Assembly (NCBI GenBank): GCA_030682795.1 | Contig: JAUXNJ010000038.1 | Coordinates: 1 to 64,000 of the forward strand | Direction of reading: 5' to 3' | From: Sphingobacteriaceae bacterium | GTDB lineage: Bacteria; Bacteroidota; Bacteroidia; UBA7662 | Length of the DNA stretch: 64,000 bases | Part shown: piece by piece, positions 51,065 through 58,008 of the stretch | Position numbering within the stretch: position 1 is the stretch's first letter | Layout of the letters: each line of letters starts with the position of its first letter | Position numbers and translations under genes: made by a program | Notes under the pieces: generated by a model | What the model saw: only the letters and a program-made list of their open reading frames with translations | The model's database searches: none | Told to the model about the DNA's origin: nothing

Positions 51065-51832
51065 ATGAAACGTACACGTATAGTTGCTGGTAACTGGAAA
51101 ATGAATAAGGATTTTGAAGCTGGCATGTCGTTGGCTTCTGAAATCATTCCAATGATAGAAAGTGAAGTACATCATGACTTGCTCACGATTTTGTTTCCGC
51201 CTTTTGTGCATATTCATGCCTTGGCGAGCTTGAGTGCAGGGAAAAAAGCTTTTGCCATTGGTGCGCAAGATTGCAGTGCTTTTGGGGCAGGTGCCTATAC
51301 AGGGGAAGTGGCTGCCAGCATGATCAAAAGTGCTGGGGCAGAGTATGTTTTAGTAGGGCACAGCGAACGTCGTCAGTACCACGGCGAAACAGAAGTGATT
51401 TGCCTGGAAAAAATAAAGAGAGCCCTCGAGGCAGGTTTGAAGCCTATTTATTGCATCGGTGAACTCAAGGAGCAAAGGGTAGCTGGTACTTTTGAAGCTG
51501 TGATTATAAATCAGTTGCAAGGTGCTTTACAGGCTTTGAGTACCGCAGAAATGCAGCAGCTTGTACTGGCTTATGAGCCAGTTTGGGCCATTGGAACTGG
51601 TTTAACGGCTAGTCCCGAGCAAGCTCAAGAGGTGCATGCACTTATCCGCAAGTGGTTAGCAGAACAGTTTGGATCTGAAATTGCTGAAAGCACTTCTATT
51701 TTGTATGGTGGATCGGTGAATGCTAGCAATGCCCAAGAGCTTTTTGGCATGCCTGATATTGATGGTGGCTTGGTAGGTGGGGCCTCGTTGAAGTCGCGCG
51801 ATTTTACCGAGATAGCCAAAGCCAATCATTAA
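51065..51832 (+). CDS. tpiA: Triosephosphate isomerase
   Basis: This 255-aa glycolytic enzyme interconverts dihydroxyacetone phosphate and glyceraldehyde 3-phosphate. The catalytic Lys is in AGNWKMNKD, the His in LVGHSERRQ and the Glu in AYEPVWAIGTG; YGGSVNASN binds phosphate. Length is normal. It is 12 bp after the GlmU-like gene and 3 bp before prmA. Confidence 0.97.
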   Translation: MKRTRIVAGNWKMNKDFEAGMSLASEIIPMIESEVHHDLLTILFPPFVHIHALASLSAGKKAFAIGAQDCSAFGAGAYTGEVAASMIKSAGAEYVLVGHSERRQYHGETEVICLEKIKRALEAGLKPIYCIGELKEQRVAGTFEAVIINQLQGALQALSTAEMQQLVLAYEPVWAIGTGLTASPEQAQEVHALIRKWLAEQFGSEIAESTSILYGGSVNASNAQELFGMPDIDGGLVGGASLKSRDFTEIAKANH

Positions 51833-51835
51833 GTT

Positions 51836-52660
51836 ATGCAATACTATAGATTTGACATTCGCTTAGAGGAAGATTTCAAAGAAATTTTGCTTGCTGAGCT
51901 GGGCGAATTGGCTTTTGAGGCATTTGATGATTCAGAAGCCCGCATCCTTACTGCTTGGGTGCAAAAAGCCTTGCATGACGCACAGGGCTTGGCTGAAATT
52001 TTAGAGCGGTACGAGGGCCACATCATTGAGGTGAAAGGTCCTGTAGAGGAAGAAGAACGCAATTGGAATGAGCTTTGGGAATCGCAGTACGAGCCTGTGG
52101 TAATCGACGATTTTGTGCATATTCGTGCGCCTTTTCATCCGCACCAGGAAGGCTTTAGATTTGAATTGGAGATTGAGCCCAAGATGTCGTTTGGCACCGG
52201 GCACCACGGAACTACTGCTGGTATGGTGCGCATGATGCAACAAATTGATATGCGGCAGAAACGAGTGCTTGATATGGGCAGCGGCACGGGCATTTTGGGT
52301 ATAGTAGCCATGAAGCTTGGTGCCAAAGCCGTACATGCCATTGATATTGAAGCCTGGGCTGTGGAAAATGCCATTGAAAATGCCAAGCGCAATGCTGTTG
52401 AGATGGAAGTTGAGCTCGGTACGGCTTTGCACATGACGGGTACTTACGATGTCATTTTGGCGAATATTAACCGCAACATCATTTTACAAGATATTGCACG
52501 CTATGCTGTGCATTGCACGGCTGGTGCCGCTTTGTTGTGCAGCGGTTTTTATATCGAGGATGTGGATATGATTCGCGAAGGTGCTGCGTTAAATAACTTT
52601 AAGTTTGAGCGTGAAAGCAACGAAAATAACTGGGCCACCGTCTTATTTACTAAACTTTAG
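51836..52660 (+). CDS. prmA: Ribosomal protein L11 methyltransferase
   Basis: This 274-aa enzyme trimethylates ribosomal protein L11. The SAM-binding motif LDMGSGTGILGIVAMKLGA is clear (about residues 143-161), followed by ILANINRNII, the usual substrate motif. An N-terminal L11-recognition domain of about 100 residues is present. It is 3 bp after tpiA and 1 bp before the next gene, so translation is probably coupled. Confidence 0.93.
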   Translation: MQYYRFDIRLEEDFKEILLAELGELAFEAFDDSEARILTAWVQKALHDAQGLAEILERYEGHIIEVKGPVEEEERNWNELWESQYEPVVIDDFVHIRAPFHPHQEGFRFELEIEPKMSFGTGHHGTTAGMVRMMQQIDMRQKRVLDMGSGTGILGIVAMKLGAKAVHAIDIEAWAVENAIENAKRNAVEMEVELGTALHMTGTYDVILANINRNIILQDIARYAVHCTAGAALLCSGFYIEDVDMIREGAALNNFKFERESNENNWATVLFTKL

Positions 52661-52661
52661 C

Positions 52662-55600
52662 ATGTCGTTGAGATTTTTACTCTTGTTTCCGTTGTTCGCC
52701 TTTTTAGGGTATTCCAATGCTTCCGCACAATCAAATACTTCCTTTTCTAACAATTATGAATTGTTTATTAAGGAGTTAACGGAGCAAATGACGGCAGCGA
52801 AGCGTGACGATTATAAAAAACTTGCCTCCAATTTTAATGATTCGTGGAATAGTGAATACATTGATGCTCAGCGGGATGTGATCATGAAGGCTGCTAATGA
52901 CATGAAGCGCAAGCGCCTGCCGATTTATCCTTATTTTGGTAATTATCTCGAACTGCTTCAAAAATTGAAGGCGGTTGATGTGTCTACCAGACGATTTTAC
53001 GAGTGGCATACTACTTATGCCAAAGTGATGGGACTTAACCAGCGTTCGATTGACCAGTACTTGAAATCGAGCATCGATTTTTTCGGATCTAGCGCGATTT
53101 ATCTCTCTAATGCCATTAAATGGGAGTTTTATGCTCCAGATTATAAATTTGAGTTTGAAGATAATCAGGTGTTTGTGAGCTTGCCAAGCACCGATTTACG
53201 TTGCATGTATTTTAACGACTCCATTGTAATTCGAGGAACGGCAGGTATCTGGTATCTGGTTGACCAACGTTTTGAAGGTCAGGGCGGCGTTATTGATTGG
53301 CAACGTGCTAATTTCCCAACAGACTCGATTTATGCCAATTTAAATACCTATCAATTGAATCTGAAGCAATTTCAGATGGCGGCCGATTCAGTGAGCTTCT
53401 ACAATAAAAATTTGGGTCGATTTATTCCAGGTCGATTGCAAGATAAGTGCACTGCAAATCTCACCACCGAAAACATTAGCTATCCTCGTTTTGCTTCCTA
53501 TGAAGGGGAGTTGGTACTCAAGGATATCTTTAAAAACGTGACCATTCGAGGGAAATATGCATTGAATGGCAATCGTTATTTAGCTGTTGGAACAAGGGAA
53601 GAACCGGCGGAGGTTTTTATTTATAAGAACGACACAACAACCGTTAAGGCCACCTCTCGCCAGTTTGCTATTCGTAAAACGGAGATTTTTTCGGATAATG
53701 CGGAGGTGAATGTGCTGCTTAAAAAAGACAGCATTTACCATCCTGGTATTGCCATGCGTTTTACCACGGCCGATCGCAAACTCCTTTTGTTTTTGGAGCC
53801 CGGCTCCATCAACAAAATCCCTTTTTCGAATTCTTACCACCAATTGGATACTTATTGTGAGGTGATGAGTTGGAAAATTGATGATCCTTACATCGAATTT
53901 AAGATGCAAACCGGCTTGAGTGAGGCCATTGCCGTTTTTACGTCGAAAGACTATTTTGACCAACGAGAATACATGGCCGCTCAAGGTTATGCTACTTACA
54001 ATCCATTGGTGCGTCTTTTTCAATATGGCCGTCAAACAGGGGAGAATTATTTTCCTGCCGAAGGTTTTGCTGCTTTTATGAAGTTGCCCTTAAATTCGGT
54101 GCGCCAGTTGCTTATTGATTTGGCAAACCAAGGCTTTATCTATTACGATAGGGAGCAAGAAGAAGTGACCTTGCTCAAAAAGCTATACCACTACAACAAT
54201 GCCAGTGCGGGTCGCATCGACTATGATGTAATCAAATTTGTGTCAAAGACGAATTTGGAGAGCAATGCCATGTTGAATATTTCCACCCGTGAATTACAAA
54301 TTAATGGCGTAAATGTGGTAATCATGAGCGATACGCATACTGTTTTTGCGGTGCCACGGGAGCGAAAAATGCTAATCACCAAAAATCGAGGAATTGAATT
54401 TGCGGGGCATGTGCATGTAGGAACCCTCGACTTTTATGGAGAGGGCTTTACTTTTGATTACGACAATTTCAAAATAAAAATGCAGGAGGTCGATTCGTTA
54501 CGTTTTCAGGTTATGACGGGCGAAATTGATCCAAGAGGACAGCCGGTTTTGGCGCGCATACAGAATGCTTTGGAGAACATTACCGGGACTTTATACATCG
54601 ATGACCCTCGCAATAAATCGAGCCGCAGCCCCCTCTACCGTTACCCTTATTTTGAGAGTTTAGAAGAGTCCTATGTTTATTACGACCGGCCGAATATCCA
54701 AAATGGTGCTTACAAGCGTGATATTTTCTATTTTAAGGTAGAGCCATTTGTGTTAGATAGTCTCGATTTTGCAGGTTCAACGAGCCGTTTACAGTTGAAT
54801 GGCACCTTGGTGTCGGGTATTTTCCCCGACTTTAAAGAAAAATTACGCTTTCAAGATGACCTATCATTGGGCTTCGCCACTTTTACACCTGAGGCAGGTT
54901 ATCCGACCTATGGGGGAAAAGGCACTTACTACAACAACATCACTTTAGATAAACAAGGTCTACACGGCTATGGTAAGTTGCAGTACCTCACTTCCATGAG
55001 TGAGTCTAATAACTTTGTTTTTAGGCCTGAAAACACTTCTGCCCAACTCGACAAATTCAATATTAAAAAAGGCAGCTATCAGGCTACTTCTTATCCTACT
55101 TTAAAAGGAGAGAATGTAGGGATGTTGTGGAAGGCGAAATCCGATTCCATGCTGGTATATCGGGGCCCTGCTCCCTTTGAAGTATACGATGGGGTAGCTC
55201 TTTTTGAAGGTGATCTGACCTATACGCCTGAGCAGTTGTATGCCAACGGCACTATTTTGTATGGCCGTGATAAGATCATAAGTCGCACCTTTGCGCTAGA
55301 GCAACAAAAAGCCAGCTCTGAACAGTTGCGCCTAGAAATCGCTTCCAACACACCTAATTTATTGGCCTTAAAAACCGACGATTTGGAGGGTGAGGTAGAC
55401 TTCACTAAGCGCTATGGTACTTTTCGCAACCGCACCGGAGAAACCAAGGTGGAACTGCCTTACAACGAATACAGCGCCAGATTACAGGATTTGGAGTGGG
55501 ATCTGAGAAATAATAAATTGGTATTGGGTGCTATCAAAGATTTGAAAGCGCCTAAAACCACCTTCCGTTCAGAGCACCCTGGGATGGATGGCTTTAATTT

Positions 55601-57071
55601 CAAAGCGGCCTATGGGGCCATGGATCTGAACATTTTTGATTTAGATCTTAGAGGCATTCCTGAGATGCGGACTGCTGATGCCATTGTATTGCCCGACAGT
55701 GGCAAGGCCTTGGTAACCAAGGAGGCCAGGATGATGCCTTTGAAAAATGCCCGATTGGTATTTGATTCGCTCAAACAAGAGCATCAGGTATATCGTGCTA
55801 GTGTAGATGTGTTAGGTCGGAAACGTTATGAAGCAGAAGGTGTATATGATTATGTCAACAGTAACAAACAAAAGCAAGCCATTTTCTTGGACATCATTCG
55901 GCCGAATATCAACGGCATTACGGTAGCAAGCGGCACCATTTCGCCCGATTCAAGTTTTATGCTCAATCCTGGTTTTGGATTTAGTGGAGGTGTAGCAGTT
56001 ACGAGTGCAAAAAAGGCCGTTACTTTCAATGGATTGGTGCGCTTAACCGAATTGCCAGATACAATCCGCCATAGTCCATTTCGATTTAATAGCGACTTTG
56101 ATCCGCAGGAAACCTTCATCAGAGTTCCAGAGTTCAAAGATGATTTAAATCGCAAAATGTTTGCAGGTCTGATGCTGAATCAGGCAACTTGGCAAATTTA
56201 TGCCGCATTTGGGGGTTCTAAAATGGCCAGTCAAGATTCGGTGCTCTTGGAAACAGCAGGAGTGGTGCGTTTTACAGAGCGAACAAAAGTTTATGAAATC
56301 GGTCCTGAAAAGTTAATCTTAGAGGGCGAGGGCATTGGCAATTCGTTAATTCTTAATCCTGCTTCTGAAAAGGTTACAGCCCGCGGCAAAATCAGGTTGG
56401 GATTTGATAAAGATGATATCCGTTTTATGAGTGGCGGGGAAATCAACCATAAATACCTGGAAGGCAAGACTGATTTATTACTCAGTGTACTTATCGACGC
56501 CCTTATTCCAGACGATGCTTTGAAAATCTTTTACAATCAATTGGTAGATTATTCTTTTGGTGCTGAGGATGTGAATAATGACCAGGATTATGTTAAAATA
56601 GCCTTTAGAAATATGCTAACGGGGAAATCAGCTGAGCGTGTTCTAACTTCCATGGATAATTTCGGAACCATCCCTACTACAGAGGGCACCGATTATGTAT
56701 TTGTACTTAGTAACCTTGATTTAAGCTGGGATGGTGATACCCGCTCTTTCCGTTCGAAGGAGACGATTGGTTTGGCAAATATGAATGGAGAAACAGTAGG
56801 GAAGCGTCTCAATGGCATATTTGAAATACAAATTTTACCGACCGGACGAACTTTTAACCTATTAATCGAGCCTAGTGCTGGGGTTTATTTCTTTTTTAAT
56901 TACCGCAATAACCGCATTTATCCGGTGTCAAGTATGATGGAATTTAATGAGGCTACGAAAAAAGGTTTGGGTAAGAAGAAGAAAAAAGGCGTAGATAATA
57001 AAGTGTCGATGGGAATTACTCAGAACCGCGACAGATTGGTAACGCGGCATTCAAATTGGTTAGGAGAATAG
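52662..57071 (+). CDS. Giant conserved secreted protein of unknown function
   Basis: This 1469-aa protein starts with a signal peptide ending near NASAQ. An N-terminal helical segment (about residues 25-150) is followed by a very long beta-rich body made of layered strands with no enzyme motif. Around residues 470-520 there is a winged-helix-like patch (FMKLPLNSVRQLLIDLANQG). Several stretches resemble the stacked strands of OstA/LptA-type lipid-transport folds, but I cannot confirm this. The C-terminus ends with a Lys-rich linker (GKKKKKG) and no T9SS domain. It begins one base after prmA, and plsY begins directly after its stop, which suggests an envelope role in a coupled operon. Confidence 0.7.
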   Translation: MSLRFLLLFPLFAFLGYSNASAQSNTSFSNNYELFIKELTEQMTAAKRDDYKKLASNFNDSWNSEYIDAQRDVIMKAANDMKRKRLPIYPYFGNYLELLQKLKAVDVSTRRFYEWHTTYAKVMGLNQRSIDQYLKSSIDFFGSSAIYLSNAIKWEFYAPDYKFEFEDNQVFVSLPSTDLRCMYFNDSIVIRGTAGIWYLVDQRFEGQGGVIDWQRANFPTDSIYANLNTYQLNLKQFQMAADSVSFYNKNLGRFIPGRLQDKCTANLTTENISYPRFASYEGELVLKDIFKNVTIRGKYALNGNRYLAVGTREEPAEVFIYKNDTTTVKATSRQFAIRKTEIFSDNAEVNVLLKKDSIYHPGIAMRFTTADRKLLLFLEPGSINKIPFSNSYHQLDTYCEVMSWKIDDPYIEFKMQTGLSEAIAVFTSKDYFDQREYMAAQGYATYNPLVRLFQYGRQTGENYFPAEGFAAFMKLPLNSVRQLLIDLANQGFIYYDREQEEVTLLKKLYHYNNASAGRIDYDVIKFVSKTNLESNAMLNISTRELQINGVNVVIMSDTHTVFAVPRERKMLITKNRGIEFAGHVHVGTLDFYGEGFTFDYDNFKIKMQEVDSLRFQVMTGEIDPRGQPVLARIQNALENITGTLYIDDPRNKSSRSPLYRYPYFESLEESYVYYDRPNIQNGAYKRDIFYFKVEPFVLDSLDFAGSTSRLQLNGTLVSGIFPDFKEKLRFQDDLSLGFATFTPEAGYPTYGGKGTYYNNITLDKQGLHGYGKLQYLTSMSESNNFVFRPENTSAQLDKFNIKKGSYQATSYPTLKGENVGMLWKAKSDSMLVYRGPAPFEVYDGVALFEGDLTYTPEQLYANGTILYGRDKIISRTFALEQQKASSEQLRLEIASNTPNLLALKTDDLEGEVDFTKRYGTFRNRTGETKVELPYNEYSARLQDLEWDLRNNKLVLGAIKDLKAPKTTFRSEHPGMDGFNFKAAYGAMDLNIFDLDLRGIPEMRTADAIVLPDSGKALVTKEARMMPLKNARLVFDSLKQEHQVYRASVDVLGRKRYEAEGVYDYVNSNKQKQAIFLDIIRPNINGITVASGTISPDSSFMLNPGFGFSGGVAVTSAKKAVTFNGLVRLTELPDTIRHSPFRFNSDFDPQETFIRVPEFKDDLNRKMFAGLMLNQATWQIYAAFGGSKMASQDSVLLETAGVVRFTERTKVYEIGPEKLILEGEGIGNSLILNPASEKVTARGKIRLGFDKDDIRFMSGGEINHKYLEGKTDLLLSVLIDALIPDDALKIFYNQLVDYSFGAEDVNNDQDYVKIAFRNMLTGKSAERVLTSMDNFGTIPTTEGTDYVFVLSNLDLSWDGDTRSFRSKETIGLANMNGETVGKRLNGIFEIQILPTGRTFNLLIEPSAGVYFFFNYRNNRIYPVSSMMEFNEATKKGLGKKKKKGVDNKVSMGITQNRDRLVTRHSNWLGE

Positions 57072-57722
57072 ATGATTATATTCGATCCAGCCATATTGCC
57101 CTTGTATGTAATGGCCTATTTGCTAGGTTCTATTCCCACAGCTGTGTGGACAGGTAAGTTGTTTTATGGCATCGATGTACGTGAGCACGGCAGTCACAAT
57201 GCTGGCGCTACCAATACCTATCGTGTTTTGGGTGGTAAAGCAGCTGTTCCAGTGCTATTGGTCGATATTCTAAAAGGCTTTACTGCTACTTCACTCATTC
57301 ATTTATATCCTGAGCTTTTGGAACGTGATACAAGCAGCTTTGTATTGGTTAAGATTTTTTGCGGCTCTTTAGCCATTTTAGGGCATTTATTTCCGCTTTT
57401 TGCTGGATTTAGAGGCGGTAAAGGCGTGGCCACCATGTTCGGCATGATCATCGGTCTACATCCAGCTGCGGCTGGCATTAGTTTTTTGATTTTTCTGCTT
57501 ACTTATGGAGTCTGGAGTTATGTGTCGTTAGGTAGCATATTGGCTTCTTTTGCTTTTATTTTAGCTGTGGTACTAGTGTTTAAAGACGATAGAACAGCTT
57601 TGGTTGTTTTTGCGTTACTGCAATTTGGATTAATTTTATTCACCCATCGAAAGAATATTGAAAGACTGAAATCAGGCAATGAAAAAACAATTCGAATATT
57701 CTCGTCAAAACGGAGCCTTTGA
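57072..57722 (+). CDS. plsY: Glycerol-3-phosphate acyltransferase PlsY
   Basis: This 216-aa membrane enzyme transfers an acyl group from acyl-phosphate to glycerol-3-phosphate, the first step of phospholipid synthesis. Motifs GSIPTAVW, SHNAGATNTYRVLG and GHLFPLFAGFRGGKGVAT match PlsY, with about five membrane segments. Its ATG directly follows the stop of the giant gene. Its last 44 bp overlap clpS in another frame. Confidence 0.95.
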   Translation: MIIFDPAILPLYVMAYLLGSIPTAVWTGKLFYGIDVREHGSHNAGATNTYRVLGGKAAVPVLLVDILKGFTATSLIHLYPELLERDTSSFVLVKIFCGSLAILGHLFPLFAGFRGGKGVATMFGMIIGLHPAAAGISFLIFLLTYGVWSYVSLGSILASFAFILAVVLVFKDDRTALVVFALLQFGLILFTHRKNIERLKSGNEKTIRIFSSKRSL

Positions 57723-58008
57723 GGCGGCTTTGCCTAAAGAATGGCAAGACCAGCAGCATGATGTTTTAGTACTTGAAGAGGAGTCTGAAAGCCTCTCTAT
57801 TGTGCTCTATAACGATGAAGTAAATACATTTGATCATGTTATAATGTGTTTGGTGAAGTATTGCGAACATTCGGTGATTCAAGCCGAGCAATGTGCTTGG
57901 ATTACACATTACAAAGGTAAATGCCAGGTCAAGACTGGTGGTTTTGAGCAATTAAGGCCTCAGTGTGAGGCCCTTTTAGAGCAGGGTTTAAGCGCATTTA
58001 TAGAATAA
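57679..58008 (+). CDS. clpS: ATP-dependent Clp protease adaptor ClpS
   Basis: This 109-aa adaptor recognises N-degron proteins and delivers them to ClpA or ClpC. The core motif LYNDEVNTFDHVIMCL is typical, with Asn-Asp and downstream His in the binding pocket; an N-terminal extension of about 35 residues is flexible. The gene starts inside plsY and overlaps it by 44 bp, which is long for this gene pair. Its likely partner is ClpC, encoded 8 kb upstream. Confidence 0.92.
   Translation: MKKQFEYSRQNGAFEAALPKEWQDQQHDVLVLEEESESLSIVLYNDEVNTFDHVIMCLVKYCEHSVIQAEQCAWITHYKGKCQVKTGGFEQLRPQCEALLEQGLSAFIE

Follow-up and report, generated by a model that had tools for sequence, protein, structure and literature searches.

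The window analysed here is a stretch of 64,000 nucleotides from a Sphingobacteriaceae bacterium (GenBank assembly GCA_030682795.1, contig JAUXNJ010000038.1, positions 1 to 64,000 of the forward strand). Between prmA and plsY it contains an open reading frame (ORF) for a very large protein of 1469 amino acids (aa), denoted below the giant gene and the giant protein. An earlier note on this DNA, made from the sequence alone, had described the product as secreted and beta-rich with a winged-helix-like patch, and had suggested that it may be an envelope or lipid-transport component. The analysis reported here shows that the giant gene represents a real, conserved, uncharacterised protein family that is widespread in the class Bacteroidia.

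52662..57071, forward strand: giant gene, 1469 aa; relatives detected to date in the class Bacteroidia alone

The giant gene and its family

The ORF extends from the ATG at 52662 to a TAG stop that ends at 57071. A single base separates the end of prmA (52660) from this ATG, and the ATG of plsY (57072-57074) begins directly after the stop; the length and the tight spacing given in the earlier note are confirmed by these coordinates. An in-frame TTG is present 19 codons upstream, within prmA, but the assigned start is supported by relatives: the first ATG of locus L002 lies at the same place and locus L004 also has an ATG there, followed in both by a hydrophobic stretch. The giant gene is single-copy in the genome. 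Comparison with a 90%-identical relative gives a nonsynonymous divergence (dN) of 0.066 with the synonymous divergence (dS) saturated, which points to purifying selection; together with the conservation in the class, this rules out a chance ORF.

A search with the single sequence detected the giant gene in 310 of 396 genomes of the class (completeness 90 or more), and a 20-row profile, run on genomes of completeness 95 or more, detected relatives in 309 of 396 (78%); the best rows listed are nearly full length, and some of the 309 positives matched only partly or in pieces. Within the order, 12 of 21 genomes carry the gene. None of the 309 positives belongs to the families f22, f33, f36, f40, f53 or f56, for each of which negative rows are listed, and the gene is absent from all nine genomes (9/9) of g3, a sister genus within the window's own family. 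Given these absences, the giant protein is not essential throughout the class. In a draw from the phylum, 10 of 247 genomes were positive, all from the window's class and the window's genome among them; the non-matching genomes of this draw are mostly not itemised, and the number of the 247 that lie outside the class cannot be stated. A scan of viral contigs recovered no relatives.

In our alignment A1, two close rows are 70 and 60% identical to the window protein and the other 17 are 26-36% identical. Longer relatives, with open frames of 1542-1857 aa, occur in families f17, f49, f61 and f66 (loci L040-L047); several of these match the profile in pieces, and their match to the N-terminal domain is weak.

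The window protein falls below every Pfam and NCBIfam cut-off and, used as a single sequence, matches no PDB chain up to E 1; the family profile yields a sole PDB match up to E 10, at 0.34, which is taken as chance. TFIIE_alpha is the only recurrent Pfam match among 20 full-length members (found in 4, best E 0.013); overall, the smallest Pfam E is 4.2e-4, for Fe_dep_repress in one member, and NCBIfam reaches 0.12 at its lowest. These searches assign the protein to no known family, in agreement with its description as uncharacterised. No paper recognisable as dealing with the family was found in literature searches, among the matches listed. A paper on signature proteins (PMC1887533) might include it.

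Protein anatomy and beta topology

The following segments can be delineated in the protein:

52662..52727, forward strand: putative signal peptide, residues 1-22 (from sequence; cleavage inferred before Q23, which is invariant in A1)
52731..53126, forward strand: N-terminal domain, residues 24-155, perhaps alpha-helical (alignment A5)
53127..54038, forward strand: first beta region, residues ~156-459 (antiparallel coevolution ladders; repeat match)
54039..54206, forward strand: winged-helix-like insert, residues ~460-515 (Pfam scan, PDB profile search, sub-cut-off single-sequence Pfam match)
54219..56981, forward strand: long beta region with internal repeats, residues ~520-1440 (profile self-match; antiparallel ladders)
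56982..57068, forward strand: basic C-terminal tail, residues 1441-1469 (alignments; no sorting domain recognised)

Residues 1-22 resemble a Sec/signal peptidase I signal peptide ending in ASA before the Q. Searched with simple patterns, 128 of the 158 family rows show an AxA-Q-like site, 4/158 a lipobox-like motif, and only 3/158 an internal transmembrane-like segment; no internal membrane segment is seen in the window protein. In 97 of these rows, a segment near the N-terminus is hydrophobic enough to pass the threshold; that of the window protein falls short. The N-terminal domain that follows may be alpha-helical, helices appearing only in a very low-confidence model. At the other end of the protein, the C-terminal sorting domain of type IX cargo was sought with NCBIfam in 20 members and gave no match below E 0.1.

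Coevolution was analysed by a mean-field method in 300-residue windows (ladder score 5) on 157 of the 158 aligned sequences, one being dropped for coverage, with an effective number of ~123 at 80% identity. There are 22 antiparallel ladders, compared to 2 and 3 in two controls with shuffled columns, and 6 parallel ladders, compared to 6 and 2. Since column shuffling also erases phylogeny, it is fairer to set antiparallel against parallel ladders within the real alignment. Parallel ladders show no excess, and a parallel beta-solenoid is rejected on this ground. Most of the antiparallel ladders (20/22) join residues no more than 35 apart. The long beta region is repetitive: in profile self-comparison (hhalign, 58 sequences), positions 745-1336 match 837-1454 with E 1.7e-5 and positions 320-460 match 850-1010 with E 7e-6. 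The coevolution signal supports the presence of an antiparallel beta-meander. The characterisation of the protein as very large, beta-rich and furnished with an export signal is borne out.

The same features could be accommodated by an array of separate beta-sandwich domains of the immunoglobulin-like or macroglobulin-like kind, acting as a surface or periplasmic scaffold, an adhesin or a protease trap with no role in lipid handling. Internal repeats offset by ~90 positions match domain-sized units, and an export pattern combined with many D-S/T motifs is what characterises O-glycosylated non-cytoplasmic proteins (PMC12871550). However, none of the Pfam families of immunoglobulin or macroglobulin type is found repeatedly in the 20 full-length members, the only trace being one InlJ_IG match at E 0.17, and the coevolving strand pairs are mostly near in sequence, which is less typical of Greek-key sandwiches, although hairpins are the easiest to detect and the pairs covered were those up to 300 residues apart. 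We regard such an array as possible but somewhat doubtful.

The D-S/T motif itself, D-[ST]-[ALVIMT], is given as the O-glycosylation motif of Bacteroidota in the same source (PMC12871550). It occurs 11 times in the window protein; 1000 shuffled versions average 4.1 and reach 11 at most. Across the family, it has a density of 8.2 per 1000 aa, compared to 1.8 for the E-[ST]-x motif; for comparison, the density is 8.0 in TamB, 16.5 in OstA_2, and 1.2 and 0.75 in the cytoplasmic proteins PrmA and TpiA, respectively. The motif is found in 93-99% of rows at alignment positions 356, 699, 611 and 976, the last of which lacks it in the window protein, and in 89% at position 242. Such a density fits an extracytoplasmic location.

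The insert between the two beta regions was scanned with Pfam in 71 members. TFIIE_alpha was matched in 12, DnaD_N in 10, Fe_dep_repress in 7, FeoC in 6 and IclR in 4 (best E 1.4e-4), within a total of 47 families matched at E 0.1, some of which are not winged helices; the best match of the window member remains under the cut-off (19.8 vs 22.9 bits). A profile of the insert searched against PDB has Transcription Factor E as its best match (E 0.004) among ten matches up to E 1, the other nine lying above E 0.05 on overlapping residues; these nine are mostly winged-helix regulators. The identical scan, applied to the N-terminal region in 46 members and to the C-terminal region in 45, produced scattered matches, with at most three members per family, and the PDB profiles of both regions point to no consensus family. 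The winged-helix-like patch of the earlier note thus found support in the scan and the profile search, and residues ~460-515 are predicted to form a winged-helix-like domain resembling TFIIE_alpha, DnaD_N, DtxR-type, FeoC, IclR and MarR. Proteins of these families bind nucleic acids or have regulatory functions in the cytoplasm or nucleus, whereas the domain of the giant family sits inside a protein that bears an export signal.

Four cysteine columns (P0001 positions 181, 939, 1132 and 1236) are conserved in 65-87% of the 158 rows and may form disulfides; the window protein retains only the cysteine at 181.

Gene neighborhood and co-occurring genes

The genes closest to the giant gene, as named by hidden Markov models (HMMs), are the following:

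51065..51832, forward strand: tpiA (HMM), in the same gene run; its ORF cluster is present in 21/41 loci
51836..52660, forward strand: prmA, ribosomal protein L11 methyltransferase (HMM), directly upstream
57072..57722, forward strand: plsY, glycerol-3-phosphate acyltransferase (HMM), directly downstream
57679..58008, forward strand: clpS (HMM), overlapping the end of plsY

The complete set of HMM-named neighbors comprises a Clp-type ATPase, a GlmU-like transferase, TIM, PrmA, PlsY, ClpS and an M48 protease. Gene order was compared in 41 loci, namely the window and 40 others chosen for diversity and flank length. In 30 of the 41, the giant gene is immediately preceded by prmA on the same strand (called gaps of -68 to 78 bases), and in the remaining 11 prmA is not adjacent; plsY lies directly downstream in 17, and both genes flank the giant gene in 16. 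Among the 40 additional loci, tblastn places prmA upstream in 28 cases, plsY downstream in 18 and both in 16, the ORF-based and tblastn-based counts differing slightly. The neighborhood is accordingly conserved, with prmA upstream in 30/41 and plsY downstream in at least 17/41 loci. Neither of the two outcomes named in the earlier note as refuting it, a clear match to a characterised family and the lack of a conserved neighborhood, was observed. The label of a 'coupled envelope operon' is overstated, because prmA and tpiA are not envelope genes; the link to plsY is loose as well.

Among 20 prmA loci from genomes that lack the giant gene, prmA is followed directly by clpS in seven and by plsY in one, from family f36. 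The seven comprise four of the five g3 loci (L280-L283; the fifth ends at prmA) and three f53 loci (L269, L270 and L285), and their prmA-clpS intervals are missing both the giant gene and plsY. They represent either clean losses or an ancestral state without the giant gene.

Of the genomes tested, 10 of the 18 that carry the giant gene have a plsY gene, as do 7 of the 26 that lack it (Fisher p 0.07, for chosen and related genomes). Given these counts, the two genes are neighbors rather than proven partners, and plsY as an obligate partner is ruled out. PF02660, the Pfam model of plsY, has no match in 27 of the 44 tested Bacteroidia genomes, including nine g3 genomes; such genomes presumably use another first acyltransferase.

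In 10 of the 41 loci, a large protein is encoded within ~3 kilobases downstream of the giant gene, and the one member scanned has matches to PD40 and SPOR. As called, these proteins, at L068:1226-6784 (reverse strand) and nine other loci, are 468-2285 aa long, some being cut by the locus ends.

The recurrence of this PD40/SPOR neighbor could be taken as a hint that the giant protein assists outer-membrane assembly or type IX secretion, as a chaperone or periplasmic scaffold for the complex surface proteins of Bacteroidota. SprA, a component of type IX secretion, is present in 308 of the 309 genomes with the giant gene, and a cross-count that treats the two genome searches as one draw gives 308 genomes with both, 1 with the giant gene only, 77 with SprA only and 10 with neither (Fisher p 1.5e-6). 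However, SprA is present in 385 of 396 class genomes compared to 309 of 396 for the giant gene, so that type IX secretion is rejected as a tight phylogenetic partner, the 77 genomes with SprA only attesting to this. Moreover, the ten genomes lacking both clump in few families, and therefore the association is not independent evidence; because all eleven SprA-negative genomes are confined to five families, it is weak as evidence for a type IX role. Structures of barrel assembly machinery (BAM) complexes of Bacteroidota are reported as solved (PMC12578637), yet the giant family matches no PDB chain. An accessory role of this kind appears quite improbable.

Relation to known envelope proteins and possible function

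Among the known proteins closest in outline to the giant protein is TamB (PF04357), which is likewise large, beta-rich and internally repetitive, with mostly 1485-1693 aa in its open frames and a similar D-S/T motif density. The giant protein differs from it in what, by simple patterns, looks like a cleaved signal peptide in place of an inner-membrane anchor, in the winged-helix insert, and in the lack of a Pfam match or of profile similarity to the part compared. AsmA-like proteins carry an N-terminal inner-membrane anchor helix. Internal repeats and D-S/T richness are also common to the giant family and the OstA_2/LptA-type proteins (PF13100), but the giant protein is almost three times longer than the latter (507-659 aa) and shows no profile similarity to them. 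LptD is another large, beta-rich envelope protein to which the giant protein bears a general likeness; nevertheless, the giant family does not match the LptD_2 model (PF19838), of which the genome has a separate copy.

None of the 20 members has a TamB, AsmA, OstA_2 or LptD_2 match in Pfam. In hhalign comparisons, which covered TamB, OstA_2 and AsmA and not LptD, and in which the TamB and AsmA rows ended at locus ends (~960 and 670 columns, respectively), the giant family gives E 0.21 against TamB, 0.20 against OstA_2 and 0.075 against AsmA; as controls, TamB against AsmA gives 4e-4 and TamB against OstA_2 likewise fails (0.38). Detectable homology to TamB, AsmA, OstA or LptD, all of which are present elsewhere in the genome, is not supported by these results, and the kinship to LptA/LptD, AsmA or TamB that the earlier note had proposed to look for did not materialise. 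Distant kinship is possible, because the rows were cut at locus ends, LptD was outside the hhalign set, and the method fails on TamB and OstA_2 themselves. The giant protein might belong to the AsmA/TamB or LptA superfamily, having diverged so far that sequence methods no longer reveal the link, as its TamB-like size, antiparallel beta structure, internal repeats and TamB-like motif density would suggest. The hhalign values set against the TamB-AsmA control, and the signal-peptide pattern where AsmA-like proteins have their anchor, make this unlikely.

The reading that we favor, with low confidence, is that of a beta-groove or scaffold in the periplasm, free of a membrane anchor and located at the outer membrane, which would carry or shield hydrophobic cargo and use its winged helix as a docking module; this reading is suggested by the wide conservation, the export pattern, the scarcity of internal transmembrane segments, the antiparallel excess and the internal repeats, along with the D-S/T density, the winged helix, the adjacency of plsY and the PD40/SPOR neighbor. 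The protein would be exported by Sec and relieved of its signal peptide, leaving an N-terminal domain followed by a long antiparallel beta-meander that the winged-helix domain interrupts. In the periplasm, the winged helix would serve as a docking module instead of binding DNA, and the groove or scaffold, on the periplasmic side of the outer membrane, would hold a lipid, a lipoprotein or an unfolded outer-membrane protein, acting like TamB or LptA without detectable relation to either. Family, conservation, winged-helix similarity, antiparallel excess and gene order are computed here, and from them we infer localisation, groove, cargo and partner. The envelope or lipid-transport role once suggested is compatible with these results.

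Several observations weigh against this beta-groove reading. No homology to a lipid-transport family was detected by Pfam in the 20 members or by hhalign, and the window's genome holds two TamB, two AsmA, one OstA_2 (on C26) and one LptD_2 (on C40) matches elsewhere. That whole sampled families lack the gene speaks against a central role in lipopolysaccharide export or barrel assembly; all nine g3 genomes lack the giant gene, yet eight of the nine have LptD. The co-occurrence with plsY is weak, 8 of 18 giant-gene genomes being without it. With regard to structure, three of the 22 ladders lie at 5-17 and 29-38, in the signal peptide and N-terminus, and at 466-500, within the winged helix; antiparallel meanders are also compatible with barrels and domain arrays, and AlphaFold2 models of residues 24-545 and 560-1060, built on two-row alignments, have a mean predicted local distance difference test score (pLDDT) of only 31.7 and 27.4. 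Finally, the D-S/T density may be structural in origin, and it stands at 3.9 in the AsmA rows, 2.45 in the PD40/SPOR cluster and 0.48 in M48.

A more specific version of the beta-groove reading, which we consider rather unlikely, is a new kind of periplasmic bridge known to date from Bacteroidia alone: an anchor-free beta-groove of ~1500 residues that would dock on partners through its winged helix and pass lipids or lipoproteins on in the direction of the outer membrane. If this were the case, the bridge would run beside TamB and Lpt and not replace them. The surface-lipoprotein flippase of Bacteroidota is described as still unidentified in PMC12578637. The conserved gene order and the single copy make the giant gene a straightforward deletion target. 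Given its size and its occurrence in 78% of the sampled genomes of a major bacterial class, the giant protein, for which Pfam and NCBIfam give no assignment and PDB no relative by sequence, represents a large blank in the envelope biology of Bacteroidota.

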